Assembly (NCBI GenBank): GCA_019454045.1
Contig: SKCR01007779.1
Coordinates: 62,001 to 126,000, forward strand
Source of the DNA: Zanthoxylum bungeanum
Taxonomy: Eukaryota > Streptophyta > Magnoliopsida > Sapindales > Rutaceae
DNA length: 64,000 nucleotides
Reading direction: 5' to 3'
Shown: positions 1,260-64,000 of the stretch, piece after piece
Layout: each line of letters opens with the position of its first letter
Numbering within the stretch: the stretch's first letter is position 1
Notes under the pieces: generated by a model
Seen by the model: the letters and a program-made list of their open reading frames with translations, nothing else
What the model was told of the DNA's origin: nothing
Databases searched by the model: none
Position numbers and translations under genes: made by a program

Positions 1260-1299
1260 GCGATAGGGGAATTGGAGCGTGACTGGGAGACTTGGAAAT

Positions 1300-10353: not shown

Positions 10354-10368
10354 AAGTTTGGGGGTATT
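10354..10368 (+). other. Polypurine tract of the Athila element
   Basis: AAGTTTGGGGGTATT lies directly before the 3' LTR and would prime plus-strand DNA synthesis. The upstream 'ctagcaaaat' is also present before the polypurine tract of the element at 46526-46538 (opposite strand). Confidence 0.8.
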
Positions 10369-11811: not shown

Positions 11812-11980
11812 ACAGGTTTGAGGTCTGCCCTGCGAGGGGTGAGTGCGGCCTTAAATCTTTATCTCGGTTTCACACTGGGTGGCGACTCCATGTTATTTCT
11901 TGGTTTAGTTCCCCGCGAGCTATTTCGTACTCCAACAGGCCGCGAGCCTAGAACAGCGTCACCGATTTCTGTGTCCTACA
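11812..11980 (+). repeat. Right part of the Tat-like 5' LTR (U5 end)
   Basis: Resembles 15093-15248, with shared landmarks 'gaggggtgagtgcggcctta', 'cactgggtggcgactc' and 'gccgcgagcc'. It ends CCTACA before the primer site. The first five bases are the Athila target duplication. Confidence 0.8.
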
Positions 11981-12001: not shown

Positions 12002-13363
12002 TAGAGAATCAGCCCCGAAATAATGTCTTGTAGTGATTATGATTTGTGTTTTAGTTAACCGTGTCTATAGTGGGTTGAAATCTGTTTAATCGAAGGCATT
12101 ATTAAGGCTATGTGATGGTTTGGTATCTTCCTTCATTCACTACCTTTCTATAAGGAAAAGTTGTGAATGCACCAAGATAATCATTGCCCGTAGCTCGTTG
12201 TGACAGACTAGTTTGGAGGACTTGTTGTTTAAACCTGTCACCAAGGCGATAAGAGCCTAAGAGACTTGGGTATTTAAGAGAGTTCGCTCCACTCTCTCTC
12301 TGGGGAATCTACAATGGGAAACCCATTCGACAGTTAGTCACACACCATAACTCGTTGGCACGTACCGCAAGGTATTAAAAAGGTGCGTTCACTTGGTCGC
12401 TTGAACCCTTGAGTGGGGAGTCCTAGTTGTGGGAAATCCTTCGTCAGCGAGAGCCTTTTTGTACACTCCCATAAACCCACATGTGAACCGTAGTTGTATG
12501 ACCTATAGAAGCCACCATTTATGCTTTTGATAACCACATGCATATTATATCTCATGCATCGCACACATTTCATGCATCTCATGCATACACGCATCATGTT
12601 AACCCCCGTGTCTTAAAAGCCATTATAGATATCCGTTGGGTTAGAAAAAAAAAAGATTTGTCAAGAAGAGTTTAGCAAACATGGATATAGAGAAAAGAAA
12701 GCCGAGAAACAGAAAATTTTACAGCAATGATAGAAAGATCATGGTGGGCCCGAAAAAAAAAATTTTGTTGTTTGTTTTTAGTCCTTGATAGTTAGACATA
12801 AGTCCAATAATGAAATCGTTTGCTTTAGGGTGAAATCTTAGAAACGATAAACTCTTGATGTATTTTTATCTGATACTTTGAGTGATTGATCTATGTTAGA
12901 CTAGTAAGCACTTCACTATAGGTTCTTAGCGGTGAAAACCTGAGTAGTTGGCAAGGTGAATAGTCGAAGAAATTGTAGGTCGGTGAATGACTGTTTGCTT
13001 AGATGTCTATCTTGATTTGCTTATGTTATGATGTGTGGTATGGTTGAAAATAAAAGAAAAGTCTCTAAAGAAAAGAATTGAACCACCTATAACCAACAAG
13101 CGTGAAGCTACCTATGGGCGAGTATTAGGACCACCATGAGGAGAAATGCTACCTTAAAGGGTAGGTGTGTTGAAAAAAAAACAAAAAGAAAAAAAGAGAA
13201 AGAAAAAAAAAAGAAAAAAAAGAAAAGAAAAGAAAAGAAAAGAAAAAAGAATTTCAAAATGAAAAGAAAACAGAAAGAGACAAAAGAGAAAGAAAACCAT
13301 ACCACATTGAGCACAGAAAAGCAACTGCAGCATAATTGAGACATCTAGGTTGGTTTGACCCAC
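12002..13363 (+). other. Tat-like leader and 3' noncoding remnant without coding sequence
   Basis: No gag or pol homology is seen. A run of 'catgcat' motifs lies at 12537-12595. The region 12780-13360 resembles the Athila 3' noncoding region at 9500-9895, including the near-identical block 13101-13157 and 'tctaggttggtttgacc' at 13344-13360. A long A/G-rich low-complexity run at 13171-13315 gives false Lys-rich and Phe-rich ORFs. Confidence 0.65.
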
Positions 13364-14345
13364 CGCGCCAGATGAAGTATACTAGATTGAATGTGAAATA
13401 CGTTCAATCGGGCATACAAGGCCCCATATAGATGTCGGCCTAGGTTGCATCTGTTTTATTTTCCGTTATTTACTTCCCGCATGTTATTGCTTTATTTATT
13501 TATGCATTGTTAATCAAGTGCACATGGGCTAATCATGTTGGATTAAAGGTCCTATATTTGATGGAAATGCCTAAAGGCTACCTTTACCATGACATTTTAC
13601 CACGCCGGGCGAAGTATTCTTGATTGAATGTGAAATACGTTCAATCGGGCTTACGAGGTCCCATATAGATATTGGCCTTGGTCGCATCTCTTTTATTATT
13701 ATGTTATTTACTTTTTGGGTATCATTGCTTTGTTTATTTATGCATTGTTAATCTAGTGTGTATGGGCTAATCATGTTGGATTAAAGGTCCTCTATTCGAG
13801 GGAAATGCCTAAAGGCTACCTTTACCACGACGTTTTGGCGCACCGGACGAAGTATAAATGATTGAATGTGAAATACGTTCAATCGGGCATACGAGGTCCC
13901 ATATAGATGTTGTCCTAAGTCGTATCTCTTTTATTTTTCGTTACTTACTTTCGCATGTTATTGCTTTATTTATTTATGCATTGTTAATCTAGTGCGCATG
14001 GGCTAATCATTGGATTAAAGGTCCTATATTCGAGGGAAATGCCTAAAGGCTACCTTTACCACGATGTTTTGCCGCGCCGGATGAGGTATACTTGATTGAA
14101 TGTGAAATACGTATTGAAATACCCATATAGATGTCGGCCTTGGTCACATCTCTTTTATTATTTTGTCATTTACTTTCTGCATGTTATTCCGTCTCTTTAC
14201 TTTTGCGTCGTCATTTGGTGCACATGGGCTAATCGCGTTGGATTAAAGGTCCTCCATTTGAAGGAAATGCCTAAAGGCTACCTTTACCACAATGTTTTGC
14301 CGCGCCGGGTATACAAGATCCCATATGGACGTTGGCCAAAGCTCT
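13364..14345 (+). repeat. Tandem repeat, about 4.2 units of ~235 bp, with a conserved stem-loop
   Basis: Units start near 13364, 13601, 13838, 14073 and 14301, each beginning with a CGCGCCGG-like motif. Each full unit has GATTGAATG, a 7-nt loop and CGTTCAATC (the fourth unit is truncated here), a T-rich middle, 'catgggctaatc' and 'aaatgcctaaaggctacctttacca'. Tandem arrays in the 3' untranslated region are known for Tat/Ogre elements and can seed satellite DNA. Confidence 0.88.
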
Positions 14346-30522: not shown

Positions 30523-30834
30523 TGTTGGAAAAAATGCTTATGAGTAAGCATTTTGAGGCTCAATTTTAAGCATGGTCCAGTTCATGTTAGTGGTTGTTAT
30601 TGAATGATTCAGATACTCCTCCGTGAGTACTTCGAAATGGTATATTCATATGCTTAAAATGATGTTTGGGTGAATGGGAAATTGTTGCTCAAAGTTCACC
30701 CATTGGTGTTAGAAAATAAAGAGAAGTTAGCTTGTCCCATATGAGAAAGCTATAGAGAGAAAATTATGCTTATATATGATTGTTCATTAGTAGATGGGTA
30801 AGAGTTATAAGGATAGAGACTCTCTCTACGTGCG

Positions 30835-30874
<40 letters not shown>

Positions 30875-31263
30875 GCAAATCAAATCTGAATCAAGCTTGG
30901 CTCGTGTGCACCCGCGTGTCCTGCGTACACGAATGTGCGGGCCCGGCCCAGCCGAATTTTTACTTGTCTCTTTATTTTTCCAAGCCTTTTAAAGTTCCAT
31001 AACAATTGAAACAATCGTCTCGTGTTCTACTGCACCTAAGGTGGGAGACGAATTTGTTTTAAGGAAATTGTTGCCATCAACAAGCCTCGGAATTCTCTCT
31101 GTTTCGTTCGATTACTGCACTGCCTCCGTTCTGAATTGTTCCTGTCTCTAGTTCATTGATGCTCAGCTGTTTTCACTCCTGTATCTGTGTTATTTTCATT
31201 ACTGTTGTTTAGTTATTACCGATACTTTATTGTACCATCTTTGTTCTGTTTTACTGTTGTTCA
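30523..31263 (+). repeat. Copia-1 5' LTR, internally deleted
   Basis: Matches 35851-36888 except for a ~290-bp gap and the loss of the end. It contains TATA-like 'ttatatatga' near 30770 and a 38-base G run at 30836-30873. Confidence 0.85.
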
Positions 31264-32235
31264 TTGTCCTCGGAAAACAGTCCAAACACAGTAGATCCGA
31301 ATGTGGCAGCCTCTTCGGCTAGCCAAAATGTTGTGGCAGCCCCCGTGGCTAACCAAAGTGCAGTGGCAGCCCCTTCGGCTGGCCAACTTGCAACAGCCTC
31401 TGGGCTTAATATGGCAGCCGTTGTGGCTGGCCAGGTGTTTGCTGCCTCTATGGCTAGACAACCTGTTGGACATGTGAGCCATGTCAATCCTGCTGCGGAA
31501 AAACCTGAAAAATTCAGTGGTCAGAATTTCAAAAGGTGGCAACAGAAAATATTTTTCTACTTGACCACGTTGAACCTTGCGAGGTTCTAAAGGAAGATGC
31601 TCATGTACCCGCGGAGGGTGAGATTGATATCCAAATGATCAGTGCGATCGATGCTTGGAAAACATTCTGAATTCCTATGTAGGAAGCCGGTACTAAGAAA
31701 TTTGTCGTGGGCCGTTTCCTTGATTTTAAGCCAAGTACAAGAACTGCAGATTATTCTAGCAGAAATTCATGCTGAGGGGATGAGTTTAAGTGAAACTTCC
31801 AAGTAGCCTCGATAATTGAGAACTACCACCTGGTTGGAAAGATTCCAAAAATTATCTAAAACATAAGCGAAAAGAGATGAGCATTGAAGACCTGGTTCTT
31901 AAGCTCAGAATTGAAGAAGATAATCGAGTATCTGACAAGAGAGGAATATCTCATGAGGCCAAAGCAAATGTTGTTGAACATGGCCATAAGAACAAGAACC
32001 CTAAGAACAAAGGGTCAAAGATGGCCCTAAAGGAGGAGTTTCCAAGAAATCCAAATTTCAAGGAAGATGCTTCAACTGTAACAAAATGGGTCACAAGTTC
32101 TTCTGAGTGCAGACTGCCGAAGAAGAAAAAGAATCAAGAGGCTAATGTGATGGAAAATATGACTCAAGATGTTTCAGACATTAACCTTTCAGCTGTGGTT
32201 TATGAGGTGAATCTGGTGGGTTCTAACCAAGAGAG
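31264..32235 (+). pseudogene. gag: Copia-1 gag, broken
   Basis: The N-terminal part (31264-31590) has an Ala/Ser/Val-rich head with imperfect repeats, then the family segment EKPEKFSGQNFKRWQQKI. The first codon is TTG where ATG would be expected. Frameshifts follow between 31590 and 31877. The C-terminal part (from 31877, MSIEDLVLKLRIEEDNR) holds Lys-rich sequence. A CCHC knuckle (CFNCNKMGHK) is readable near 32068 only in another frame, flanked by compensating frameshifts. The product would be the nucleocapsid of virus-like particles. Confidence 0.82.
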
Positions 32236-32525: not shown

Positions 32526-33680
32526 ATGTATGTGGGAAAATGGTATGTAACTGATGGGCTCTTTAAGCTCAATGTAATGGTTGTTAAACCTAAGAATATC
32601 AATAAAGCTAGTTCTTCTGCTCTTATTGTTGAGTACTCTAATCTATGGCATGGTAGATTAGGACATGTTAATTTTAATTCATTATGGAAATTAATTAATA
32701 TGAACCACATTCCCAATTTTAAAATTGATAACAAACATAAGTGTGATACTTGTGTTGAGGCAAAACTGACTAGATCATCTTTTCATAGTATGAAAGAAAC
32801 TCTGAACCACTTGATCTAATTCATACCGCTGTATGTGATTTTAATTCAATACAATCGAGAGGCGGTAAATATTTTATTACCTTTATTGATGATTGCATAA
32901 GATTTTGCTATGTGTATTTGATGAAAAGTAAGGACGAAGCTATAGAGAAATTTGTTCTCTATAAGAATGAAGTTGAGAATCAACTGAATAAAAGAATTAA
33001 GGAGTTGAAAAGTGATCGTGGTGGTGAGTATGTTTTCCCTTTTGAATCACTTTGTGAACAAAATGGAATCATACATCAAACCACAGCTCCTTATTCACCT
33101 CAATCCAATGGGATTGCAGAACGGAAGAATCGTACCTTGAAAGAGATGATGAACGCTATGTTAATCAGCTCTGGCTTACCTCAGAATATGTGGGGAGAAG
33201 CTGTCTTATCAGCTAATTACCTTTTAAATAAGGTACCACGGAAAGAAGTAGGGAAAACTCCTTATGAAATGTGGAAAGGAAGAGTACATTCCTATAAATT
33301 CCTACGAGTGTGGGGGTGTCTTGCCAAGGTAATCATTCCTCCACCTAAGAAGGTGAAGATAGGACCAAAAACTGTTGATTGTGTTTTCATAGGATATGCA
33401 CATAACAGTAATGCTTATCGATTTCTTGTGTATGAGTCTACTGTACCAGATATTCACAAGAATACGATAATGGAGTCGAGGAATGCATCATTTTTCGAAT
33501 ATGTTTTCCCCTGTAAAACTAATTCGAATTCAAATATGCACAAACGGGCACATGAGACTATCATTGAAGATAGTCAGGACCAAGAACACATAAATGTTCC
33601 AGAGGATCAACAAGTTGTTGAACTTGAACCAAGACGTAGCAAAAGAGCTAGAACAGAAAAATCATTTGGTCCAGATTTTC
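32526..33680 (+). pseudogene. pol: Copia-1 integrase, catalytic Asp lost
   Basis: The GAG-pre-integrase zinc domain (WHGRLGHVN...CDTCVEAK) lies in 32526-32819, which ends after a frameshift. The core continues in the frame of 32912-34057. The first catalytic Asp of the HTDV-type motif is an Ala codon (GCT at 32828-32830). The second Asp (SDRGGEY, 33014) and the Glu (IAERKN, 33119) are present at the D-35-E distance. The C-terminal region includes KVKIGPKTVDCVFIGYA. The enzyme would be inactive even without the frameshift. Confidence 0.85.
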
Positions 33681-33689
33681 TGACATTTT

Positions 33690-34560
33690 TGCTAGAGAAT
33701 GATCCTCAAAGCTATAACGAAGCTGTAAGGTCAACTGATGGTGCCTTGTGGAAAGATGCCATCAATAGTGAAATTAGATCCATCTTACAAAATCACACCT
33801 GGGAGTTAGTGAATCTTCCTCCAGGATGTAAACCTTTAGGGTCCAAGTGGATTTTCAAAAAGAAAATAAAGGCAGATGGATCAATTGACAAGTACAAAGC
33901 AAGACTTGTAATTAAAGGTTACAGACAATGTGAAGGTGTTGATTACTTTGATACTTATTCTCCTGTAACGAGAATAAATTCCATAAAGATGATACTAGCG
34001 ATTGCAGCTTTGCGCAATCTTGAGGTACATCAGATGAATGTGAAAACAGCCTTCTAAATGGAGATTTAGATGAAGAAATCTACATGGAACAACCTGAAGG
34101 CTTTATAGCTCCAGGACAAGCAAAGAAAGTCTGTAAGTTAGTTAAATCCTTGTATGGATTGAAACAAGCCCCGAAACAGTGACATAAAAAGTTTGATGAT
34201 ACCATGTTGGCAAATGGTTTCAAAATCAATGAATGTGATAAATGCATTTATGTCAGAGAGACAGAAGTTGGCTATGTCATTTTATGTCTCTACGTTGATG
34301 ACATATTGATTGTCGGAAGTAATGTTAAAATGGTGAAATCTACCAAGAATATGCTGAAATCCAAGTTTGACATGAAAGACATGGGTCTAGCAGATGTCAT
34401 TCTGGGAATAAAGATGTCGAGAAGTCCTGATGGACTTATTCTTGATCAGTCGCACTATGTGGACAAGATTCTTGGTAAATTTAACAATGATGATTCTGAT
34501 GTGGCTAGAACTCCTTTAGATGTGAGTCTACATCTATCGAAGAATAGGGGACATGGTATA
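33690..34560 (+). pseudogene. pol: Copia-1 reverse transcriptase, broken
   Basis: Starts with WKDAINSEIRSI and WELVNLPPGCKPLGSKWIFKKK. A one-base loss near 34053 creates a TAA (34055-34057) inside the KTAFLNGD motif. A TGA at 34180-34182 replaces the Trp codon after YGLKQAP. The YVDD active site at 34291-34302 is intact. Confidence 0.87.
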
Positions 34561-34566
34561 TCTTAA

Positions 34567-35049
34567 GTAGAATACTCTAGAGTGATCGGGAGTTTGATGT
34601 ATCTATTGAGTTGTGCAAGGCCTGATATAGCCTGTACAGTAAACAAGCTCAGCAGATATACGAGTAATCCATGGGTTGATCACTGAAAAGCAATAGTAAG
34701 AGTACTTAGGTACTTACGTTTTACTCGTAATTATGGGTTGCACTATCATAGATATTCAGCTGTAGTCGAAGGATACAGTGATGCTAATTGGATATCTGAC
34801 ATAAAAGACTCAAAGTCTACCAGTGGCTATGTGTTTACACTAGCAGGTGCGGCTATATCATGGAAATCCTCCAAACAGACTGTGATAGCCAGATCTACAA
34901 TGGAATCAGAATTCATTGCATTAGATAAGTGTCCTGAAGAAGCAGAATGGCTTCGAAATTTTCTAGAGGATATTCCAAGTTGGCCTAAGCCAGTGCCAGC
35001 AATTTGCATTCATTGTGATAGTCAATCTGCAATTGGAAGGGCACATAAC

Positions 35050-35090
<41 letters not shown>

Positions 35091-35241
35091 CAATACCGTT
35101 AGACAATTACTCTCTACTGGAGTTATTTCGATTGACTATGTAAAGTCAAAGGACAACATTGCGGATCCGCTAACCAAAGGGTTAAATAGAGAGTTGGTTG
35201 TGAAATCATCGAGGGGAATGGGACTAAAACCCATTAGATAA
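34567..35241 (+). pseudogene. pol: Copia-1 RNase H, broken
   Basis: Conserved words [45 protein letters not shown] and [11 protein letters not shown] show a copia RNase H with its acidic residues. A stop (TGA, about 34684-34686) interrupts the first part. The frame is open from 34687 to 35241, ending in [11 protein letters not shown], the usual end of this polyprotein. Confidence 0.87.
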
Positions 35242-35850
35242 ATGTTTATTACGAAGGAAAACCCAACCTTGTTGACTGGAGATCCCAAGATCTAGGTTCA
35301 ATGGGACAACCTACTCGTAAAAGACATAATTGGTTCACTGTGAGGGGTTACCCTATAGTCCATTCCTATGGTGAAATGAAACAGTGATGCTCGTATGGAT
35401 TGAGGTTAAGCAAAGAATTTTAATGATTCTTATGCGTCGGGAATCCGAGCAGAGTATTACGAGATGCTCTTGAATAAGAAATCACCTATGTGAGAGAGAA
35501 GTGGGGCCGCTTCAAAGGGAATTGTACGGGGCTCAATTCTTAGAAACTCTTGCGGAACCAGGTTGATGTTCATGGCCAAAATGAACATAATAATGAGAAC
35601 TCAGATGTGTTAGGTTAAATATCTGTGTGATATATATTCTCCATTTACATGAACGACAGTACAGTTCAATGACATCGCGTCCACTGTCAGCTAGTAAATG
35701 AGATATATTTTCACAAGGGAAGGTTCAAAGACTGAGGCCTACCTATCCTATGCATGTGTTGAACCGTTGAACTCTTCTAGGTCAAAACAAAATGTTTTAT
35801 AAAAAAAATTTATTCGACTTTTTTCCGCCAATTTCATTCATGTGTGGGAT
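35242..35850 (+). other. Copia-1 3' noncoding region
   Basis: Lies between the polyprotein stop and the 3' LTR. It matches 61388-62030 of the inverted copy. A short purine run (GTGGGAT) precedes the LTR. Confidence 0.7.
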
Positions 35851-36913
35851 TGTTGGAAAAAATGCTTATGAGTAAGAATTTTGAGGCTCAATTTTAAGCA
35901 TGGTCCACTTCGTGTTAGTGGTTGTTATTGAATGATTCGGATACTCTTCCGTGAGTACTTCGAAATGGTATATTCATATGCTTAAAATGATGTTTGGGTG
36001 AATGAGAAATTGTTACTCAAAGTTCACCAATTGGTGTTAGAAAATAAAGAGAAGTTAGCTTGTCCCATATGAGAAAGCTATAGAGAGAAAATTATGCTTA
36101 TATATGATTGTTCATTAGTAGATGGGTAAGAGTTATAAGGATAGAGGCTCTCTCTACGTGCGCGGGGGGGGGGGGGGGGGGGTGAAAATCAAATCTGAAT
36201 CAAGCTTGGCTCGTGTGCACCCGCGTGTCTTGCATATACGAATGCCGGACCAAAATGTGCGGGCCCGGCCCAGCCGAATTTTTACTTGTCTCTTTATTTT
36301 TCCAAGCCTTTTAAAGTTCCATAACAGTTGAATTAATGATATTAATCAACTTGGTGGTTACAAGCAATGGAAGGTCTCCCACTCATGTGATTAATTGACA
36401 TGTTAATGTCCTTTATTTGAGCTGTGATTTTCGTTTTTTGTGTATGCACAACACATAAATATTGTTCACAAGACATTGACACAACATACACTGGTTCCTT
36501 TCGTTTTTTCATTTGTTTTCGACTTTTTTTTTAAGAAGAGTTCAAACGCTTTAGTGGTTCGTTGGATACGAGTTCGGTGGTGCCCTTACTCGTCCGTTTT
36601 TTCATTGTATCCTGGGAAACAATCGTCTCGTGTTCTACTGCACCTAAGGTGAGAGACGAATTTGTTTTAAGGAAATTGTTGCCATCAACAAGCCTCGGAA
36701 TTCTCTCTGTTTCGTTCGATTACTGCACTGCCTCCGTTCTGAATTGTTCCTGTCGCTGGTTCATTGCTGCTCAGCTGTTTTCGATCATATATCTGTGTTA
36801 TTTTCATTACTGTTGTTTAGTTATTACCGATACTTTATTGTACCATCCGTGTTCTGTTTTACTGTTGTTCATTGTCATTTGTAAGAACACAGTAACCAAA
36901 TATAATTGTAATA
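35851..36913 (+). repeat. Copia-1 3' LTR
   Basis: Starts TGTTGGAAAA. It has a 19-base G run at 36164-36182 and retains the segment 36326-36616 missing from the 5' LTR. The end at 36913 is set by the GTTTG duplication and by comparison with the LTR at 60415. Confidence 0.8.
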
Positions 36914-36918
36914 GTTTG

Positions 36919-44436: not shown

Positions 44437-44650
44437 TTCTGAGCTTGTTAACTGTCCTCTGACTAATCTGCCTCATTCTCTAATCCAACTGGTCGTTATG
44501 ATGGCTTCATCCATAAAGTGTTAGCGTGATGTATGCATGCATGCAATTCATGAAATGCATGATATGCTCAAAAATTACAATGTATCATTCCAACCTCGTT
44601 CCCTCCACATACGTGATAAGTCCAAAATCATTCTTCTAGGTTTGGCTTAA

Positions 44651-44655
44651 CTTAT
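44651..44655. repeat. Left target-site duplication (CTTAT) of the LOG-carrying element
   Basis: CTTAT directly before the LTR; repeated at 52491-52495 directly after the right LTR. Confidence 0.88.
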
Positions 44656-46525
44656 TGACCAGTGCATTCACACGCGTATAACGCAAGCGTACGTATCGTT
44701 CAAGTAGTATAAAAATATCGATCCCACGAGGGCTTAATTCCTATTGTTGTTATTAATTATTGATACTATTTATTTACAGATATCTAATTGAAGGAGAAGA
44801 GAATGATTGTTTGATTGATTGATTGAATGTGGTTTTCCTAATTAAAATAAAAATAGACTCAAAAGAAAATACTAAGGAAAAGAAAAGAAAAGACTCAAAG
44901 ATCTAGACGTGACTCCACACAATATTATTCTAAAGATGAATTGATTCTCTTACATATGTGTAATAGATCAGTTTGCTAACCTGGAACACGAAGATATGCA
45001 AAAGCATCTGTCGATGGTCAGACGAAAATACCCAGTATAACCCAATTGAACTATATGTCTATGTCAACCAAATTACCTGGATTCATTAAGATCAAGTTCT
45101 AATTTTGGCTACCCCCTCCCGACAGGTATATGTCTATCCTGTAAGGAAATCTATTAAAGGGTTATCTATCCTCAAGGAAGATCGTGGGCTATTGAATCTA
45201 AGGCTGAAACCTAAAATCCCTATGTCTAGTTCATTTTAAGTTTACCACATCAATCTTATTGATGATCAGGCAACAAGAAGCATTAAGCTTAAGACTCAAT
45301 AAACAAACTAAAGAATTACCCATTATATAATTAAATCAATTATTAAGCCTAGTAATATTGTGTTTCATCACTTCCCTAGAATAAAAATAAAATGTTGGGT
45401 GTTGGAGGATCCACCTTTACTATTTCTAATTTAGAAATCTCCTTTATTATAATATAGAATTTATCTGTGACATTACCAATCAGCCATATAGACGGTATCC
45501 TCATTAAATCGGAATTTAATTAAGTCCAACCAGCCATAAATGCGGTATCATTATTTGTCCATAAATGAGTCATATAGGCGATAATCATCTGTCACCTAAA
45601 GACTGGCCATATAGGCGGTGTCACATTATGTCAAATAAATAAAATCACCCATTAACGCGGTAAACCTTTTAGTTTGAATTATAATTTCCATATATAATTA
45701 AGGGAGATTAATCGAATTAAAATAATAAAAGCTTCACTCTTCCCCCAGTGAAAATCTAACTACTAAACATAAAAGAAAAGAGAAGAGAAAGAAAGTAATA
45801 CTATTACTGAAAATAAAAATGCATAAATTAAATTACTAAAAATAAACACACAAGATGCAATCCTTAAATTTCTTACAAAAACCTAAGGAAAGCATGAGAA
45901 TTACCAATGAAATGGCTTGGTATTTATAGGAAAATCTAAAGGCTTCCACCAATTTCTCCACTGATTGCTCCACGAATTGCTCCACCAAACATTGCACCAA
46001 ACATGACATCATAAATGACATCAAATATGACATCAAACATGGCACCAAACATGTAAGCATGTTTGGTGAAGTTTGATAATTTTTTATTTTTTTATTTTAT
46101 ATTTTGAAAATGACTATAGTAATTACTCAAAATCTACTGGATTATTCAGCAATTTCTGCCTTCCAAACTTAATAATTACAAAATATTTAAATCTTTAAAG
46201 TTGTAGATCTTTGTGTCTTCTTCAATCTGCAACTTGAATCAGCTCAATCGGATATCAGATGAAAACGTTATGGCCAAAATAAGAAACTTACGCAAAATTG
46301 GAAATTAGCACTGCACTTCGTGACGCATATAGTAAATTTTCATTTTTGACATTTTTTCCTCCAAATTTCATCGTTTTAACCCCGAGTTGATTCCATTAAG
46401 TCCCAATATTATTTTTATCTACAAAATAAATAAAAAAACACATCAGAACGTTCATAAAACTCGAGAAACTATATAAAATATTATGTTAAATGAGTGAGAA
46501 ATAGTGATATAATTACCACTCATCA
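44656..46525 (-). repeat. 3' LTR of the LOG-carrying element
   Basis: 1870 bp, matching 50617-52490. Plus-strand ends are TGACC and CTCATCA. Includes five 'gccatataggcggt'-like subrepeats at 45481-45665. Confidence 0.9.
45481..45665. repeat. Five LTR subrepeats of a 20-bp GCCATATAGGCGGTATCA-like motif
   Basis: Occurrences at 45481, 45531, 45567, 45604 and 45646, spaced 36-50 bp. The same five occur in the other LTR at about 51443, 51492, 51529, 51567 and 51608. Confidence 0.8.
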
Positions 46526-46538
46526 CCCACCCAAACCT
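46526..46538 (-). other. Polypurine tract of the LOG-carrying element
   Basis: The minus strand reads AGGTTTGGGTGGG directly before the 3' LTR, preceded by CTAGCAAAAT as in the Athila element. Confidence 0.78.
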
Positions 46539-47192
46539 AACATTTTGCTAGTCCTCGAGCAAAACAACAAAATAAAATAACATAAAAATAAATTAATCTA
46601 AGCCAATTTCGTAGGGATCACAATTGCATTTAGCATATGCAACAAGCCTTTAAACCCCTAGGTGTCCCTAGTGGACGAGTTGTAGTCTCGTGAGTGCTTA
46701 CAACAATGATACCCACAAATATTTTACAAAAGTAAAAAGGTAGTGAAACTAATGCACACAAAAATAAAAAGACAAGAGAAAATATAATAAAGAAGTTAGT
46801 GACTAAACAAGTGAAACTTCTACTCCAAGTTACTAGTTGTTTTCTTTCTTTCTAAATTACCAAATAAGTAAATTCTCTGATTATTTTTACCATTCTCCAT
46901 ATACACAGCCAACAAAATATTAATCAACTCATTTTTTCCCACAACAGTCACAAGTGCAGTTGAGAAGAGAGTAATATTTTTGTCCTAAAGTTCTATCAGA
47001 TTTCACGCCTTTTTGTAGCAATTGAATAATTTTTCGGATTTTTCGGATTTTTTTCTTTTTCTGATTTTATTTTTTTATTTATATACAATATATTTCATCT
47101 ATGTAACAAGCTTTGGGCCGGAGGCTCCCAAACCAGTTGGCTTTAGGGCACCAGGTGTTAAGACACCCCTACAGACTTAATTACTCAGACTT

Positions 47193-47227
<35 letters not shown>

Positions 47228-47899
47228 CAACATCTTTGATCCATGCAGCGAGCTTCGGGCCAGTAACTCCCAAACCAGTTGGTTTTAGGGCACTAGGTGT
47301 TAAAAACCCCTACGGACTTAATGACTCATATCTTAGACATTTTTTTCACACTTTTTTTACTCCATTGTCAATGATAGATGATTCCTCCAATTAAACTAGA
47401 GCATTGAATATTATAAACTCATCAAATACTCCTCATGTCCGTATGTTACCATGCATATTGATAATATCTATCAACTGAGCATATGAAGATCCATTTTAAT
47501 CAGTTTTATAAAAAATTCACAAATTAAATAATTCAAAAGGAAATAAACAAAAATTATCTTGTTTCAAAAATAGGTTTGAGATACGTCTCAGGAGTGGTAA
47601 CTCCTTACACAACTATCTTTTACCAATTTCACCTTTTTAGTCAAAATAAAAACACAAAACACAAATTTTTTTTGTAATTTTTGAAAATTTTTCATTTTTT
47701 TTTTGTATTTTTCGAAAAAATTTGGACTAAAAAAAAAAAATAAAAACATCAAACAAAACAAAATAAGAAAACAAAATACTAGTTAATTAATCTCATCCCC
47801 CAAACCTAAATGAGACATTGTCCCCAATGTCTTAAACAGTAGAAAAGGAGTTTAGAAGATCATACCTGGTTAGCTAAAATGCTACATCTAGAAAGGAAA
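46539..47899 (-). other. 3' noncoding region with conserved block, tandem duplication and internal polypurine-like tract
   Basis: 46601-46701 matches 10190-10298 of the Athila element. A ~90-bp segment is duplicated (47107-47196 and 47248-47339), separated by (TA)n at about 47198-47224. The minus strand at 47807-47796 reads AGGTTTGGGGGAT after 'gacattggggacaatgtc', the same arrangement as 9310-9344. No gene. Confidence 0.75.
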
Positions 47900-48553
47900 T
47901 TAAAGATTAAGATCCAAATTTATTCGACGCTTCTTACCATGATCATCCACAGACCATTTTATCTTAGAGAGGATAGGGTCAATTTGTGGTTTAAAGGCTA
48001 AGATTTGGTCAATTAGATCTAGGGCAGTTCTGGCAGTAAAAATGAGTTCTTTCATAGGTTTTGTCATGAACCCATTTCTCCGGGCATCATCAAGAAACAA
48101 ACAAAGAAAATCATAAAATCCCTCAACATTAAACAGCCCAATCGGTTTTTGGTGTATGTTCAAGTTTGCCTAAGATAACACTATAAAAATTTCCTCCAAT
48201 GTGCCCAAGCCACCTGGCAAAGCAATAAAAGCATCAGCACGATTAATCATTTCGACCAGTCGCTCGGACATTCTCAATATGATCAGTTCCTCTCCGTTTG
48301 ATGGACCTATTAGATTCGCCTCCGCCAAGGGTTTTGGGATGATTCCCAAAACTGGACAGCCTCATTCCTAAATGGCTTTTGAAACGATCCTCATTAGTCC
48401 AAGATTACCACCACCATATATTAAGTGCATATTTCTTTCGGCTAAGATTCGACCCAATTCCTGTGCTGCTTCTATGTATTGTGGTTTAACACCAACACTA
48501 GTACCGCAAAACACACAAATGTTCTCAACTAGTCTTCTTGAAATTGCTTCCAT
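47900..48553 (-). pseudogene. LOG: LOG-like cytokinin riboside 5'-monophosphate phosphoribohydrolase, captured by a retrotransposon
   Basis: LOG enzymes release active cytokinin bases from their nucleotides in the cytosol. One frame of 217 codons starts at MEAISRRLVENICVFCG and ends at RINLDLNL, the full length of the family. The Rossmann-fold start (ICVFCGTSVG), the nucleotide loop YGGGNLGLM (residues 46-54) and the signature PGGLGTLEE (113-121) are clear. The catalytic Arg (about 98, MSER) and Glu (121) are present, but the usual Lys after the Arg is Leu. Stops interrupt the frame at codons 62 (TAG), 64 (TGA) and 128 (TAG, where the family has Trp). There are no introns, whereas plant LOG genes have several, which points to capture from mRNA. 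It sits between the post-integrase block and the 3' noncoding region. The source gene is unknown; the C-terminal tail (DPILSKIKW and beyond) is unlike the common plant LOG proteins. Confidence 0.88.
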
Positions 48554-48999
48554 TTTTATGTATTTCTTTCTCAAATCTGGATGCCTTCAAAAGTGCAATG
48601 ACGGGCTGAATTTATAGTACCTGAAATGGATGAGTAATAATAGCATTAGTATCTTCCAAAGGACGCTTGTTAGCTAAATAACAAAAGAAATCGTGAAAGG
48701 TCAAAAAGTATGGATCCTGTCTGAGAAAATAAAGATAATTACAAAAGAAAAGCAAATCAAAGCAATAATTAAGGCAACAGAATTGTGTACGCAATACGCC
48801 ACTCGTTTGGTATATAAATCCATTAGGGTGCATCTCAAGAATCCATTCCTTACTCAGCCACCACTAATGAATTAGCTCTCAACTTTGTGATTACCAAACA
48901 CCATTCCTCCTTAAATGATCCGTTTGTGTCTTTCCCTACAAAAATAACACACAAAATTAAAAAATTTACAACATGTATACACAAAATATGAAAATAAAC

Positions 49000-49075
49000 A
49001 TTAAAACAAATTGCATGGGTTGCCTCCCTGCTAGCGCTAAATTTTTCGTCTTCAGCCAGACGTGACTGAAATCTA
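49000..49075 (-). other. Conserved post-integrase block
   Basis: The minus strand reads 'tctggctgaagacg', 'tagcgcta' and 'gggaggcaaccca', matching the segment right after integrase in the Athila element (7634-7675). It marks where pol was lost and what followed it. Confidence 0.7.
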
Positions 49076-49208
49076 TCTGTCAATGAGGTTTCAGCATCGT
49101 TTTGGATGTTCAATTAAAGACAATCCCATGGGCGTTTCTTTTGAAGGGTCTTTTCCAACGGTAAGGTGACAAAAAGAGTTTTGTCTCATTCAGAGTTTGT
49201 GCCACCTT

Positions 49209-50488
49209 TTAAAACTTTGTCGCTCCAGTGGTTCCTGAAAAGAAAAAAAGAAAATCAGGAGGTCTCGTATGGTGCTTGACTTGGAATGGAAGTTCCATTT
49301 TGTCAAGCTTTTGGGCGACATATTTAATTTGTACTCCCCAAAATAATGATGTTTCTCTTGAATGCCCGAGATCTTTAACTTGTTCAGACTTTTGCTCCTC
49401 CATTTGCTCTGCTTCTTGCTCCACCTTTTCTTCACAAATGTATTTTAAAATTTCTTCATTCAGCTCTTCATTTGTCACCTGTGAAATGCATGCTCCATAA
49501 GTGTCAACCTGAGGATGTAAAGATATGTCTGATTTTAGGTCTTTATCCTCTAAGGTTGATGCAACTGGCTCAGGTAGATATTCTTCAAACATTTGTGTAA
49601 TGAATGCTCCAAAATCTTCAACCATATGATGTAAATGTGTGTCTGTTTGTAAACTTTTATTCTATGTGATTGGTATGAACGATTCAGGTAGCTATTCTTC
49701 AAACATCATTGCAATGCATTCTTCAAGATCATCATTTTGAGGATACAAAGTTCCACCCTCAATTTTTGTTGGTGCAGTTGGTATAAATAGCTCAGCTTCT
49801 TCATCAGAATCAGAGTCTGAATAATTAAAAAAAGATTTTGCTGGTTTGGGCTCCTGAACTAATACCTATGATTCTTGATACTACTCGGCCTCCTCTTCCG
49901 CTAAAGTGTCATCATGAAATGCTTGGTTCTCGAAGGCTTCATCTATGTCATCAAAAAATGCTCCTTGAGGTATGTAGCTCTGGTTTTTTGTTAATTGTCT
50001 TGTTTGATCAGTCAGTCTCTGAATGAATTCCGATTGTCTTTGAATATTTTCAAATTGCTTCTGGCATGTTTCAAGCATTGTATCCAACTCTTCGTCTCGT
50101 TTCTTGTTCCAATCTTTGAGCATGTCAATAATCTGATTTTCCTCTGATGGTTCTGGTTCTTGTTGAAGATAGTAGGTGGGTGGTGGATAAGATGGAAAAT
50201 ATGGTTTTGTGTAATGTGATGGTTCTTCATACCTTGAATGATTCTGATAATTCTGCCACTCTGAAAAGTATATGCATTGATCACTCGGGTGGTTACCATC
50301 ACATATCACACATCTCCCCATTTTGTTCTGATGAGCAAATGCAGTATTGCTTGGTTCTGACATCCAATGATAGTTATTGGGCTGGACAAAAGGCCTCAAA
50401 AAATCGGACTGTTGCTCCCAGATTTGGGGTGTATCTTCTAGTAAAGCTCATGATCTCTCAATCTCTCAATAATGTTCCATTTTTTAAC
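49209..50488 (-). pseudogene. gag: Gag-like protein with CCHC knuckle and acidic repeats
   Basis: One frame runs from an ATG near 50488 (MEHY) to the stop at 49209, with stops after MEHY and EIERS, two after EEEAE/YQES, and two inside the repeats. A zinc knuckle CVICDGNHPSDQC lies near 50310. It is followed by a Tyr/Pro-rich stretch (PSYPPPTYYLQQ), a predicted coiled coil with LDTMLETCQKQFENIQ, and an acidic C-terminal part. The latter holds three imperfect ~38-residue repeats built on 'EECIAMMFEE', 'GAFITQMFEEYLPEP' and 'GACISQVTNEEL'. No capsid core is recognisable. Presumably it binds element RNA; function is inferred from the knuckle and its position only. Confidence 0.68.
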
Positions 50489-50592
50489 CACCTGAAAACA
50501 AAAGAAAGAAATAAAAATTACAAATAAAAATAAAGAAAAATAGATACAAGTAAATTAGATAACTTCAAAATTAATAACTCAAGAAAAATAAA

Positions 50593-50610
50593 TCCCCGGC
50601 AACGGCGCCA
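50593..50610 (-). other. Primer-binding site, tRNA-Asp type
   Basis: The minus strand reads TGGCGCCGTTGCCGGGGA, separated from the LTR by AGTTTT. Confidence 0.9.
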
Positions 50611-50616
50611 AAAACT

Positions 50617-52490
50617 TGACCGGTGCATTCACACGCGTATAACGCAAGCGCATATATCGTTCAAGTAGTATAAAAATATCGATCCCACGAAGAGTTAATT
50701 CCTACTGTTGTTATTAATTATTGATACTTTTTATTTACATATATCTAATTGAGGGAGACGAGAATGATTGTTTGATTAGTTAGTTGAATGTGGTTTTCCT
50801 AATTAAAATAAAAACTAACTCAGAAGAAAATACTAAGGAAAAGAAAAGAAAAGACTCAAAGATCTAGGGTCGTGACTCCACACAATATTATTCTAAAGAT
50901 GAATTGATTCTCTTACATATGTGTAATAGATCAGTTTGTCAACCTAGAACACGAAGATATGCAAAAGCCTTTGTTGATGGTCCGACGCAAATACCCAGTA
51001 TAACCTAATTGAACCATATATCTATGTCAACCAAATTACATGGATTCATTAAGATCAAGTTCCAATTATGACTACCCCCGCCCGACAGGTATATGTCTAT
51101 CCTGTAAGGAAATCTATTAAAGGGTTATTTATCCTCAAGGAAGATCGTGGGCTATTGAATCTAAGACTGAAACCTAAAATCTATATGTCTAGTTCATTTT
51201 AAGTTTACCATATCAATCTTATTGGTGAACAGGAAACAAGAAGCATTAAGCTTAAGACTCAATAAACAAACTAAATAATTACTCATTATATAATTAAATC
51301 AATTATTAAGCCTAGTAATATTGTGTTTCATCACTTCCCTAGAATAAAAATAAAATATCGGGGTTGAGGGATCCACATTTACTATTTCTAATTTAGAAAT
51401 CGCTCTTATTATAATATAGAATTTATCCGTGACATTACCAACTAGCCATATAAGATGTATCCTCATTAAGTCAGATTTTAATTAAGTCCAACCAGTCATA
51501 AAAGCGGTATCATTATTTGTCCATAAACCAGCCATATAGGCGGTAATCATCTGTCACCTAAAGATCGGCCATATAGGCGGTGTCACATTATGTCAAATAA
51601 ATAAAACCAGCCATTAAGGTGGTAAACTTTTTAGTTTGAATTATAATTTCCATATATAATTAAGGGAAATTAATCTAAATTAAAATAATAAAAACTTCAC
51701 CCTTTCCCTAGGGGAAATCGAACTATTAAACATAAAAGAAAGGATAAGAGAAGGAAACTACTACTATTACTAAAAATAAAAATGCATAAATTAAATTACT
51801 AAAAATAAACACATAAGATGCAATCCATAAATTCCTTACAAAAACCTAAGGAAAACATGAGAATTACAAATGAAATGGCTTGGTATTTATAGGAAAATCT
51901 AAAAGCTTCCATCAATTTCTCCACCGATTGCTCCACGAATTGCTCCACCAAACATGGAATCAAACATGGCACCAAACATAGCATCAAATATGGTACCAAA
52001 CAAGCAAGCATGTTTGGTGGAAGTTTGAAAATTTTTTATTTTTTTATTTTATTAATTTTATTTTATATTTCGAAAATGACTATAGTAATTACTCAAAATA
52101 TACTAGATTGTTCATCAATTTCGGCCTTCCAAACTTACTAATTAGAAAATATTTAAATCTTCAAAGTTGTAGATCTTTGTGTCTTCTTCAATCTACAACT
52201 TGAATCCGCTCAATCGGATATCGGATGAAAAAGTTATGGCCAAAATAATAAACTTACGCAAAGTTGGAAATTAGAACTGCACTTCGTGACGCATATAGTA
52301 AATTTTCATTTTTGACCTTTTTTCTTCCAGATTTCATCGTTTTAGCCCCATGTTAATTCAATTAAGTCACGATATTATTTTTATCTGCAAAATAAAAAAA
52401 AAACACATCAAAACGTTCATAAAACTCGAGAAACTATACAAAATATTAGGTTAAATGAGTTGGAAATAGTGATATAGTTACCACTCATCA
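50617..52490 (-). repeat. 5' LTR of the LOG-carrying element
   Basis: 1874 bp, matching 44656-46525 with scattered differences. Followed by CTTAT (52491-52495). Confidence 0.9.
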
Positions 52491-52495
52491 CTTAT

Positions 52496-53288
52496 GTACC
52501 AACAGAGGTATATAAAATCATTCTCTCTTATACTAAAAGTTGAACCTTGGCTAACTCGATCATTTTCCATCGCTAAAAGACAAAGGCCGCCCATTTACAA
52601 ATGACAAGGCCTAATAAGGTGATTGTGAAATTGTTTAAAAGTGATGAATTGGAACTTTAGTAATCATGGTCATTAGGGTGGGCTATAAAATATTTAAGAA
52701 CATCTATGAAACACGACGTATCCTTGTGAATGAAAGTCAGTACATGTATCCGACTCGTTTTTTTTGGAATTTTTGACCATAATTAAATATTTTAGGCCCA
52801 ACAATATTTTCATACAATTTGACCCACTGACATTTCAAATTTTTTAACTGAATTAACATGAAACAAAAACTTGTCCTAATTAAAATCCCAACAAGATCAT
52901 GTTCCATGAGAATAGGATTAAATGAATTCAAATGGTTAAGGCCTAAAGACAAGCATTAGGAAGGCCCATTCGTATAGTGAAGCAACTATTGGTTTATATG
53001 TGTGCTTGACCTGGTTCAGGCTTAGGCTTTCATCGGTGAAGGTTTGTCCACAATTATGTCTCTCCCTCAAGGGTTCAATCAACCAATGAACACAAATTTT
53101 TTTATCCCCGAAGGTATATGCCAACAAGTGATAGTCATCATCACATAATGATTCACCGCCTTGAGTGAAAATGATTTCACGATATGTAATGTCATCGGGG
53201 ATTGAAAGCGTATATAAAATAATGAAGACATGGTTAACCTCAATCTCCCCATGAGTACAACAATGTATTTTTCGGGGCTGATTCTCTA
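52496..53288 (-). other. Leader of the second Tat-like element
   Basis: Lies between the primer site and the insertion point. No gene; an antisense-looking ORF at 52936-53358 crosses the primer site and is spurious. Confidence 0.5.
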
Positions 53289-60409: not shown

Positions 60410-60414
60410 AAAAG

Positions 60415-61387
60415 TATTACAAATATTTGGTTACTGTGTTCTTACAAAGGACTCTAAACAAACAGTAAAACACAATACGATTGCTACAATAAATAGAGGA
60501 AACAGCACAATAAGAATAATGAAAGTAACACAGTCTCAGGATAATTGCAGACGGCGGTGCAACAACGAATCAGCAACAAGAAACCAAAGAGAATTCCGAG
60601 GCTTGTTGATACGGCAATAATCTCCTTAAAACAAATTCGTCCCCTACCGAATGGTGCTGTAGAGCGCGAGACGTTTGTTTCCCAGGATGCAATGGAAAAT
60701 AAACGATAATGGGCACCACCAAAATCGTCTTCAACGAACCACGAAGTTTTTGAACTCTCTCAACAGGGAAAAACCGTTCTGTATTTTTTCTATCTTATGA
60801 TCAAAAACGAAAAAACACTGCCCACTTTAAAAGAAAATAAACATACCAATTAAATTGAGTTAGTGAGAGGCTTTTCATATGATGTAACTACCCAGTTAAT
60901 TAATAGAATTAATTTAACTGTTATGTAACTTCAAAAGAACTTCGAAAAAATAAAGAGGCTTATAAAAAGTGGCTGGGCCGGGCCTGCACAATTTGGTCCG
61001 ACATTCGTGTACGCAGGACGCGCAGGTGCACACGAGTCAGGCCTGCTCGGATTTTGATTTGCACCCCCTTGCGCGCGCACGTACGTAGAGAGCCTCTATC
61101 CTTATAACATTTACTCATCTATATATGAGCAATCATATATAAACACAATTTTCCTTTATTAGCTTTCCCATGTGGGACAAGCTTATTTCTCTTTATTTTC
61201 CAACACTAATGGGTGAATTTTGAGCAACAATTTCTCATTCACCCAAGCACCATTTTAAGCATATGAATATATCATTCCGAACTACTCACGGAGGAGTATC
61301 CGAATCACTTAAAAATAACCATTATCACGAAGTGGACCATGCTTAAAATTGTACCTCAAAATGCTTACTAGCGAGCATTTTCCAACA
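60415..61387 (-). repeat. Copia-2 3' LTR
   Basis: The minus strand starts TGTTGGAAAATGC and ends TTGTAATA. It keeps the segment that is missing in the copia-1 5' LTR. The poly-G tract of copia-1 is represented only by a short AAGGGGG-type sequence (about 61065-61072) next to GC repeats. Confidence 0.82.
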
Positions 61388-62050
61388 ATCCCCACATGAA
61401 TGAAATTGGCGAAAATACATCAAATAAAATTATTTTATAGAAATATTTTATTTTGACCTTGAAGAGTTCAACGGCTCAACACCTACATATGATAGGTAGG
61501 CCTCAGCCTTTGAACCTTCCATTGTGAAAATATATCTCCTTTACTAGTTGACAGTGGACACGATGTCATTGAACTGTACTGCCGTTCTTGTAAATGAAAA
61601 CATAAATCATACAAATATTTTACCTAACACATCTGAGTTCTCATTATTATGTTCATTTAGGCCATGAACATCTATCTGGTTCTGCAAGAGTTTCTAAGAA
61701 GTTAGCCCCGTACAATTCCCTTTAAAGCGACCCCATTTCACTCTCACATAGGTGATTTCTTATAAAGAGTAGCTCGTATTATTCTGCACGGATTCCCGAT
61801 GCATAAGAATCATTTAAAGTCTTTGCTTAACCTCTTTCCATACGAGCAACACTGTTTCATTTCACCATAGGAATAGACTAAAGGATAACCCCCAACAGTG
61901 AACCAATTATGTCTTTTACGAGTAGGTTGTCCCATTGAACCTAGATCTTGGGATCTCCAGTCAACAATGTTGGGTTTTCCTTCATAATAAACATTTATCT
62001 AATGGGCTTTAGTCCCATTCACCTCGATGATTTCACTACAAACTTTCTGT

Positions 62051-62680
62051 TTAGCCCTTGGTTAATGGATCCGCAATGTTATCCTTTAACTTTACATAAT
62101 CAATCGAAATAACTTCAGTATAGATTAATTGTCTAACGGTATTGTGTCTACGACGAATATGTGTAGACTTACCATTATACATATTGTTATGTGCCTTTCC
62201 AATTGCAGATTGACTATCGCAATGAATGCAAATTGCTGGCACTGGCTTAGGCCAACTTGGAATATCCTCTAGAAAATTACGCAGCCATTCTGCTTCTTCA
62301 GCACACTTATCTAATGCAATGAATTTTGATTCCATTGTAGATCTGGCTATCACAGTCTGTTTGGAAGATTTCTATGATATAGTTGCACCTGCTAGTGTAA
62401 ACTCATAGCCACTGGTAGACTTTGAGTCTTTCATATAAGATATCTAGTTTGTATCACAGTATCATTCGATTACAGCTGGATATCTATGATAGTGCAACCC
62501 ATAATTACGAGTAAATCGTATGTACCTGAGTATTCTTACTATTGCTTTCCAGTGAACAACCTCTGGATTACTCGTATATCTACTGAGCTTGTTTACTGTA
62601 CATGTTATATCAGGCCTTGTACAACTCGATAAATACATCAGACTCCTGATCACTCTAGATTATTCTACTTGAGATATACC
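62051..62680 (-). pseudogene. pol: Copia-2 RNase H, broken
   Basis: Segments [27 protein letters not shown] (62653-62462) and [24 protein letters not shown]...[10 protein letters not shown] (62353-62051) lie in different frames. Between them the GYSDANW segment is damaged. Inactive. Confidence 0.82.
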
Positions 62681-62683
62681 CCA

Positions 62684-63500
62684 TCACCTATTCTTTGATA
62701 AATGTAGACTCACATCTAAAGGAGTTCTAGCCACATCAGAATCATCATTGTTGAATTTACCAAGAATTTTATCCACATAGTGCGACTGATCAAGAATAAG
62801 TCCATCTGGACTTCTCGAGATTTTTATTCCTAGAATGACATCTTCTAGACCCATGTTTTTCATATCAAACTTAGATTTCAGCATATTCTTGGTGGATTTT
62901 ACCATTTTAACATCACTCCCGACAATCAATATGTCATCACGTAGAGACATAAAATGACATAGCCAACTTCTGTCTCTCTGACATAAATACATTTATCACA
63001 TTCATTGATTTAGAAACCATTTGCCAACATGGTGTCGTCAAAATTTTTATGCCACTGTTTCAGAGCTTGTTTCAATCCATACAAGGATTTTACTAACTTG
63101 CACACTTTCTTTTCTTGTCCTGGAGCTATAAAGCCTTCAGGTTGTTCCATGTAGATTTCTTCATCTAAATCTCCATTTAGAAAGGCTGTTTTCACATCCA
63201 TCTGATGTACCTCAAGATTGCGCAAAGCTGTAATCGCTAGTATCATCCTTATGGAATTTATTCTCGTTATAGGAGAGTAAGTGTCAAAGTAATCAAGACT
63301 TTCACGTTGTCTGTAGCCTTTAATTACAAGTCTTGCTTTGTACTTGTCAATTGATACATCTGCCTTCATTTTCTTTTTGAAAATCCACTTGGACCCTAAA
63401 GGTTTACACCCTGGAGGAAGATCCACTAACTCCCAGGTGTGATTTTGTAAGATGGATTCAATTTCACTATTGATGGCATCTTTCCACAAAGCACCATTAG
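62684..63500 (-). pseudogene. pol: Copia-2 reverse transcriptase, broken
   Basis: Open from upstream through KTAFLNGDLDEEIYMEQPEGF and YGLKQALKQWHKNFDDTMLANGF to a TAA at 63010-63012 (a Lys codon in copia-1). A one-base loss close to 62940 then breaks the YVDD site, leaving only the DD half readable in the next frame (62992-62684). Unlike copia-1, the KTAFLNGD motif and the Trp are intact here. Confidence 0.85.
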
Positions 63501-64000
63501 CTGACCTTACAGTTTCGTTATAGCTTTGATGATCATTTTCTAGCAAAAATGTCAGAAAATCTGGACCAAATAATTTTTCCGTTCTAGCTCTTTTTCTACG
63601 TCTTGGTTCAAGTTCAACATTTTGTTGATCCTCTGGAACATTTATGTGTTCTTGGTCCTGACTATCTTCAATGATAACCTCATGTGCCTGTTTGTGCACA
63701 TTTGAATTCGAATTAGTTTTACAAGGAAAAATATATTCGAAAAAGGATGCATTCCTCGACTTCATTATCGTATTTTTGTGAATATCTGGTATATTAGACT
63801 CATGCATAAGAAATCGATAAACATTACTGTTATGTGCATATCCTATGAAAATACAATCAATAGTTTTTGGTCCTATATTCACCTTCTTAGGTGGAGGAAT
63901 GATTACTTTGGCAAGACACCCCCACACTCGTAGAAATTTATAGGAATATACTATTCCTTTCCACATTTCATAAGGAGTTTTCCATGATTCTTTCCGTGGT
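63500..64000 (-). pseudogene. pol: Copia-2 integrase C-terminal region (partial)
   Basis: Continuous in frame with the RT. MWKGIVYSYKFLRVWGCLAKV and KVNIGPKTIDCIFIGYA match copia-1. The catalytic core lies beyond the window edge. Confidence 0.8.

Follow-up and report, generated by a model that had tools for sequence, protein, structure and literature searches.

The LOG-derived frame on the minus strand at 47900-48553 of the window (the whole 64,000-nucleotide stretch of Zanthoxylum bungeanum DNA that was analysed) lies in an old, inactive and non-autonomous Athila-type Ty3/gypsy copy of a large LOG-carrying population, in which, with a probability of about 0.7, an anciently captured LOG has become a domesticated and altered accessory gene. 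In related elements, the LOG-derived gene follows the end of pol and precedes the 3′ LTR. As judged from its residues, the protein keeps the catalytic positions of the phosphoribohydrolase fold, its base/prenyl residues are changed, and its tail is basic and leucine-rich in most relatives, including the window lineage. This retro LOG is best read as an altered accessory gene for which cytokinin production is putative at most. It is assigned here as a LOG-derived protein of an Athila-type element; since the pocket feature tested was not found in it, we do not call it a cytokinin-activating LOG.

The element in the window

The features of the element, in window coordinates, are the following.

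44651..44655, no strand: target-site duplication CTTAT, 3′ side of the element (from the sequence)
44656..46525, minus strand: 3′ LTR, in sense TGATGAGTGG...GGTCA (90.5% to the other LTR, K2P 0.085)
46526..46539, minus strand: polypurine-tract-like TAGGTTTGGGTGGG in sense, adjoining the 3′ LTR (from the sequence)
47900..48553, minus strand: LOG-derived ORF of 217 codons and a terminal stop, interrupted by stops at codons 62, 64 and 128
48610..48623, minus strand: leader motif CAG....TATAAAT in sense, 57-70 nt ahead of the LOG ATG
49209..49661, minus strand: degraded frame, weakly akin to the protease-RT linker of the LOG-bearing gag-pol element L021
49884..50447, minus strand: degraded frame, zinc-knuckle-like CX2CX4HX4C, weakly akin to the gag C-terminal part (L021, L028)
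50593..50610, minus strand: primer binding site TGGCGCCGTTGCCGGGGA in sense, beside the 5′ LTR (from the sequence)
50617..52490, minus strand: 5′ LTR (from LTR comparison)
52491..52495, no strand: target-site duplication CTTAT, 5′ side of the element (from the sequence)

Read in sense, the order is 5′ LTR, primer site, zinc-knuckle frame, the 49209-49661 frame, LOG, polypurine-tract-like stretch and 3′ LTR, and the structural features of Athila/gypsy elements (TG..CA LTR ends, a 5-base duplication, a primer binding site and a polypurine tract) were found. A sequence-only reading of this DNA had described two LTRs, a primer site, a polypurine tract and a CTTAT duplication, all of which were located in the sequence and by LTR comparison. 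The primer site is presumably of the tRNA-Asp type, and its core string recurs in seven of the 20 LOG-bearing stretches read elsewhere in the genome. The probable assignment to the Athila lineage rests on this primer type and on PF20167 in a neighbouring element, a domain that we take to link that element to Athila. The two LTRs are 90.5% identical by BLAST, with 98 transitions and 50 transversions in 1858 sites (K2P 0.085). The usual plant substitution rates are 1.3e-8 or 7e-9 per site per year, at which the LTR divergence gives the element an age of roughly 3-6 million years.

The element had also been said to lack pol, and this held: when the frames of a second gypsy element, at 763-11812, were compared by tblastn (gag, protease, RT, RNase H, integrase), none had a match in 44601-52540 at E values up to 1. 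This second element, on the plus strand, is nearly complete and of the Athila type, with an LTR K2P of 0.039; it encodes gag, protease, RT (RVT_1), RNase H and integrase (rve) and has a post-pol ORF (PF20167) at 8355-8963. It contains no LOG, the frame at 47900-48553 being the sole LOG match of the window. About 200 bases beside the polypurine tract of the LOG element (46530-46730) are 85% like the corresponding end of 763-11812, and LOG takes the place of the post-pol ORF, as had been proposed. Rfam and tRNA scans of the whole window found no match.

Several repeats were also seen in the window. On the 3′ side of LOG, at 47068-47328, a 120-base motif is duplicated at 80% (CCAAACCAGTTGG...TTTAGGGCACC); it also occurs in L020 at 6335-6541 as two 82-base copies, a non-coding feature common to both. 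Elsewhere, a 3.7-kb inverted repeat (33235-36917 and 60411-64000, 86.5%) runs past the window end and has more partial copies at 30523-31268, and 13362-14308 holds tandem copies spaced about 240 bases apart (offsets of about 237 and 477) that are 79-84% alike.

The LOG frame runs on the minus strand from an ATG at 48553-48551 to a stop at 47902-47900. With X at its internal stops, it matched PF03641 (E 1.2e-31, 110.1 bits against a cut-off of 27) and TIGR00730 (E 1.8e-46, 158.2 bits against a cut-off of 96.35), which confirms the full-length 217-codon LOG-like frame read there before; the GGGNLGLM and PGGLGTLEE motifs named with it were likewise found. The NCBIfam equivalog NF058542 gave 105.4 bits against a cut-off of 300, a threshold that plant LOGs themselves may or may not reach. 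The closest solved structure is Arabidopsis LOG3 (2a33, E 1.3e-52). PGGxGTxxE and the catalytic Arg and Glu (Arg99 and Glu122 in CgLOG) are present, and the EAR-type LxLxL motif of the frame is LDLNL. The stops at codons 62, 64 and 128 agree with the earlier view that this copy is dead.

Two other explanations for the position of LOG were rejected. The flanks of the window LOG (150 bases each) have one 10-base word in common, as a duplication of its own from an independent insertion might leave; this word was attributed to chance because 4.6% of 500 shuffles reach such a length and its 8-base core was present on both sides in none of 28 other copies examined. An assembly join was dismissed as well; the junction region recurs in many copies, and other elements of the family carry LOG.

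Copies and carriers in the host genome

The genome searched comprised 3.96 Gb in 51,709 contigs. With PF03641, the best 150 of 47,331 first-look candidates were scored, and all 150 were over the cut-off; no stop was present within the match in 147 of these 150 best-scored matches, many of which have 218-codon frames, so that stop-free copies do exist in related elements. With a 75-residue LOG3 query, the best 150 of 41,477 candidates were scored, and all had 50-58% identity; they are taken to be retro copies, no exon of a cellular host LOG being reached among them. These first-look totals are rough and do not represent copy numbers. Four contigs are common to the PF03641 and LOG3 lists, from which a crude capture-recapture gives about 5,600, the rankings not being random draws. 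When the 341 non-coding bases upstream of the window LOG were used as the query and the best 40 of 4,880 candidates were scored, the 39 matches other than the window had 91-93% identity. LOG was sought behind 20 of these 39, and 16 of the 20 align well. Taken together, the three lists place LOG copies or the leader of LOG on at least 333 contigs, and other copies inside the same element family were found. A scan of viral contigs found no relative.

The genomic context of the carriers was read in this genome, that in Citrus and Populus being taken from published reports. Twenty stretches of up to 10 kb were read around high-scoring copies, from 150 listed places. An LTR-like match lies downstream of LOG in all 20, and in 13 of them LOG is flanked by direct repeats within the stretch, which in L010 run opposite to LOG; the best-kept repeat pairs (L025, L026, L028) have about 97% identity along more than 1 kb. 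Gag and RT stand in sense ahead of LOG in three stretches, L020 and L021 with integrase, matching gag, RT and integrase of the 763-11812 element, and L017 with little integrase, matching its gag and RT. An integrase part alone was seen in two (L015, ended by the contig end, and L027), gag-protease and the end of integrase only in eight (L010, L011, L013, L018, L019, L022, L024, L028), the window type in four (L009, L016, L025, L026) and tandem arrays in two (L012, L014), while L023, which adjoins an oppositely oriented element, is without class. In the gag-protease class, pol is deleted between similar breakpoints and LOG is kept. The arrays consist of LTR-LOG units in tandem, 95-99% alike over 4-4.7 kb, that may have arisen from unequal exchange between LTRs or from circular or read-through insertion. 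Because LOG and its 3′ flank are alike in window-type elements and the other classes while the sequence more than about 200 bases upstream of LOG differs, the comparison suggests that pol-less forms arose repeatedly or by exchange.

The sequence ahead of the ATG is conserved among copies. TATAAA lies about 60 nt ahead of the ATG in all 28 distinct upstream stretches aligned, and a pyrimidine-rich run and CAG precede it in most of them. The in-frame upstream extensions of the database proteins P0008, P0013 and P0099 (Xanthoceras), back-translated by eye, read as the same leader motif. The leader at 48610-48623 may be a TATA box and/or a 3′ splice site.

The retro LOG protein

The tree was built from 65 hand-picked rows, with LOG1/3/4-type proteins (cellular by their names and identity) and LOG8 for comparison and with the LOG5, 7 and 9 types left out. 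In it, 44 retro-like proteins (that of the window, eight copies from this genome, named G000, and 35 first-search hits) stand on one side of a branch with a support of 91/93, not starred, apart from the LOG1/3/4-type proteins and LOG8. The window copy groups with the database proteins P0001 and P0003, and a separate subfamily comprises most of the G000 copies included. Where the search listings name the plant that holds a retro-like protein, it is Populus, Xanthoceras, Reevesia, Diplodiscus or Parasponia, full-length relatives in other plants having 50-65% identity. By this phylogeny, the retro LOG belongs to an old clade and is not a recent uptake. Several annotated plant proteins (P0036-P0039, P0063 and P0103 from Populus, P0074 and P0099 from Xanthoceras) fall in or near the retro-like clade. 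Populus 'LOGL10' and Xanthoceras and Reevesia 'hypothetical proteins', in the clade by the tree, may be transposon genes annotated as host genes, and the Diplodiscus proteins, which resemble the clade by search, may be transposon genes too.

According to the available text of PMC4979012, Arg99 and Glu122 are catalytic in CgLOG, and His97, Lys100 and Glu125, shared with AtLOG3, lie at the prenyl or base site. Both sets of residues were surveyed in proteins of 150-260 residues, which left out seven of 120 retro-like proteins and six of 120 LOG3-search hits. The His-Lys-Glu triad is present in 114 of 114 LOG3-search hits (cellular by names and identity) versus 8 of 113 retro-like proteins; this pocket of plant cytokinin LOGs was not found in the window frame, which has Ser-Leu-Ile, as do 23 of the 25 open G000 copies. 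Since the basal retro-like proteins (Xanthoceras, P0035, P0049, P0040) keep His-Lys-Glu, the change of the pocket is derived and came later, and the states across plants run from His-Lys-Glu to His-Ile/Met-Gln and then to Ser-Leu-Ile/Thr/His. The catalytic Arg (R98) was found in 101 and the Glu (E121) in 110 of the 113 retro-like proteins, R98 being replaced by Gln in 11 and by Leu in one. Of the 20 frames not chosen by LOG together with that of the window (21 in all), 14 have R98 and 17 have E121.

Doubtful, yet the best placed of the alternatives, is that the ancient retro LOG would still be a true cytokinin-activating enzyme, its pocket changes being tolerated and the element gaining from local cytokinin through cell division, meristem or germline activity. 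Such an enzyme would fit the retention of R98, E121 and PGGxGTxxE, and with them of the catalytic and phosphate-loop residues, in 25 of 25 open G000 copies, a dN/dS of 0.2-0.3 and the confident core of the model of P0001 (35-row alignment, mean pLDDT 85). It would not readily fit the derived replacement by Ser, Leu and Ile of the residues equivalent to His97, Lys100 and Glu125 of CgLOG, as these are described in the same source (PMC4979012).

The C-terminus differs as well. Among the first-search hits, 88 of 120 close with a basic run followed by LxLxL, counted in the final 20 residues (part of the remainder being fragments), versus none of 120 LOG3-search hits, and LxLxL is also at the end of 37 of 45 new hits of a third search. 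P0040 combines the LxLxL tail with the old His-Lys-Glu pocket. LxLxL is a short motif; the tail is regarded as an EAR-like candidate. It could be argued from this tail that the protein is no longer mainly an enzyme and that the fold would carry the basic LxLxL end as a nuclear repressor or as a decoy for TOPLESS-type corepressors. The counts above and the low model confidence of the tail (residues 204-217 of P0001 are below pLDDT 50) would suit this, as would the EAR consensus, LxLxL or DLNx(x)P, commonest at C-termini according to the available text of PMC9956375. A mere carrier, however, would not need the R98 and E121 that most retro-like proteins have, and basal members of the Xanthoceras type show the basic run but no LxLxL; we consider this account unlikely.

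Very improbable is the recent uptake of a host LOG mRNA, with the spread of a working cytokinin-activating gene under LTR control, as the sequence-only reading had it. The frame is indeed intronless within LTRs and keeps the catalytic Arg, Glu and PGGxGTxxE, but it belongs to a deep clade common to other plants and apart from LOG1/3/4-type proteins and LOG8, and LOG is also found behind gag-to-integrase in L020 and L021; on the tree and these carriers, recent capture was rejected. The Ser-Leu-Ile pocket of 23 of the 25 open copies, a C-terminal tail changed with respect to LOG1/3/4 and a conserved leader motif of its own ahead of the ATG speak in addition against a working hormone gene driven by the LTR. 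An origin from mRNA is plausible, given the lack of introns. That reading is thus supported for the LOG-derived ORF in a pol-less LTR element and for the dead copy, open relatives being found besides, and is not supported for the recent uptake and the working cytokinin gene.

Selection on LOG and relation to known systems

A stop-free frame was not counted as function because young copies need no selection to be open. For 25 distinct open copies, chosen by Pfam score, the summed dN/dS was 0.60, 0.27, 0.24, 0.21, 0.18, 0.31 and 0.28 by rising dS bin. Because of this choice, dN/dS was determined on a set not chosen by LOG, the 20 LOG frames behind non-coding leader matches (20 of the 39 besides the window), of which three are free of stops and indels with respect to the window frame. 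L050, L066, L067 and L068 were dropped as poorly aligned, and the remaining 16 frames plus the window (136 pairs) gave 0.67, 0.41, 0.33, 0.30 and 0.22 as dS rises, with 0.22-0.33 at dS above 0.15. Such a fall is to be expected if constraint acted on the old branches while the young ones are free to decay. If the four dropped frames are retained, the overall dN/dS of LOG becomes 0.495 instead of 0.31; in a neutral simulation on LOG, the mean was 0.81-0.83 and the 5% point 0.51-0.55. In the values by class, class A and class C are represented by one pair of open copies each.

Compared with the neighbouring frame 49209-49661 in 15 leader-found copies and the window (L049 was dropped from the 16, as it has no match of that frame), LOG had a dN/dS of 0.31 versus 0.51 and was lower in 98 of 120 pairs. 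By dS bin, the ratios were 0.88, 0.63, 0.51 and 0.35 for the neighbour and 0.70, 0.35, 0.30 and 0.22 for LOG. As the ratio of the neighbour also falls with dS (0.88 to 0.35), it is not a clean neutral control and may be weakly constrained itself, LOG being the more constrained of the two. This minus-strand frame is common to window-type elements and may represent another gene that the pol-less class retains under weak constraint. Within a set of five window-type elements, of which four had been picked for their LOG score, dN/dS was 0.21 (0.12-0.29) for LOG, 0.52 (0.36-0.82) for the frame 49884-50447 and 0.65 (0.56-0.91) for 49209-49661. The pattern of substitutions indicates that LOG has been under purifying selection over element generations, also in derivatives without pol. 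That LOG would be a functionless passenger, with a seeming conservation due to the choice of well-kept or young copies, is the least probable account and is already contradicted, since the ranking of PF03641 copies by Pfam score and the mere 3 of 20 intact frames not chosen by LOG would suit it, but the ratios of the leader-found frames at dS above 0.15 (16 of 20 plus the window), the 98 of 120 pairs and the full-length relatives in other plants would not.

For the preferred reading of a domesticated accessory gene, the following course is proposed. A spliced LOG mRNA or retrocopy would have been taken up once, in ancient times, by an Athila ancestor, and the retro LOG would be expressed through a short message of its own, which either starts at an internal TATA promoter or results from splicing at the conserved CAG. 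Its product would be a nuclear accessory protein that hydrolyses a nucleoside 5′-monophosphate and/or recruits TOPLESS-type corepressors by its tail, from which the carrying element would benefit. A more far-reaching version, in which a captured cytokinin enzyme would have been converted into a nuclear effector with a new base specificity, a corepressor-recruiting tail and an internal promoter, kept by pol-less derivatives as helpful, has a low probability.

Accessory genes of transposons seldom combine a recognisable enzyme with a clear evolutionary path and signs of selection. The retro LOG makes it testable why a plant retroelement carries a hormone-enzyme gene and keeps it after the loss of pol, and the intermediate pocket states and the tails without and with LxLxL across plants constitute a ready-made series.

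Steinbauerova 2011 reportedly described two Athila-like elements with LOGL4 similarity and a LOG-like extra ORF; the LOG-family ORF is said to be an extra ORF there, as in the window element. In the available text of PMC9289625, the YgdH domain, otherwise found in LONELY GUY, is described for Gypsy consensuses from two Citrus species and also, when a filter was switched off, from Populus, in agreement with Steinbauerova 2011. A LOG-like ORF in Athila-like elements of Citrus and Populus is already known. In the literature on LONELY GUY/YgdH in retrotransposons, as far as accessible in whole or in part (most subscription papers being outside its scope), no report was found of the tail, the pocket change, selection or pol-less carriers. 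The subject is a partly known one that is new and much enlarged here with respect to population, pol-less carriers, selection, pocket, tail and leader.

The Athila-like YgdH/LOGL4 ORFs, as far as they are described in PMC9289625, share with the present case a LOG-family ORF in Ty3/gypsy elements; here, in contrast, the population is large and partly open, pol-less derivatives retain the gene under selection, the pocket is changed, the tail is basic with LxLxL, and the leader is conserved. Plant LOG1/3/4, cytokinin riboside 5′-monophosphate phosphoribohydrolases, have the same fold, phosphate loop, catalytic Arg and Glu and PGGxGTxxE, and show 40-43% identity to the retro P0001 (10 of 10), whereas most retro-like proteins are without the His-Lys-Glu pocket; the C-terminal tail is another one, and the frame is intronless and lies in an element. 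The AlkB/2-ODD domain of orchid Ty3/gypsy elements is a comparable case, in which a gypsy lineage of plants has fixed an enzyme gene of host type, but it is another enzyme and, according to the same available text (PMC9289625), its activity was demonstrated in vitro, the retro LOG being known here from sequence alone. TOPLESS-binding pathogen effectors that bear EAR motifs (HaRxL21, Jsi1), as far as their descriptions were available, similarly place an EAR-type motif in a protein of a hostile or selfish agent, whereas the retro LOG is a transposon protein on a metabolic enzyme fold, with putative TOPLESS binding.
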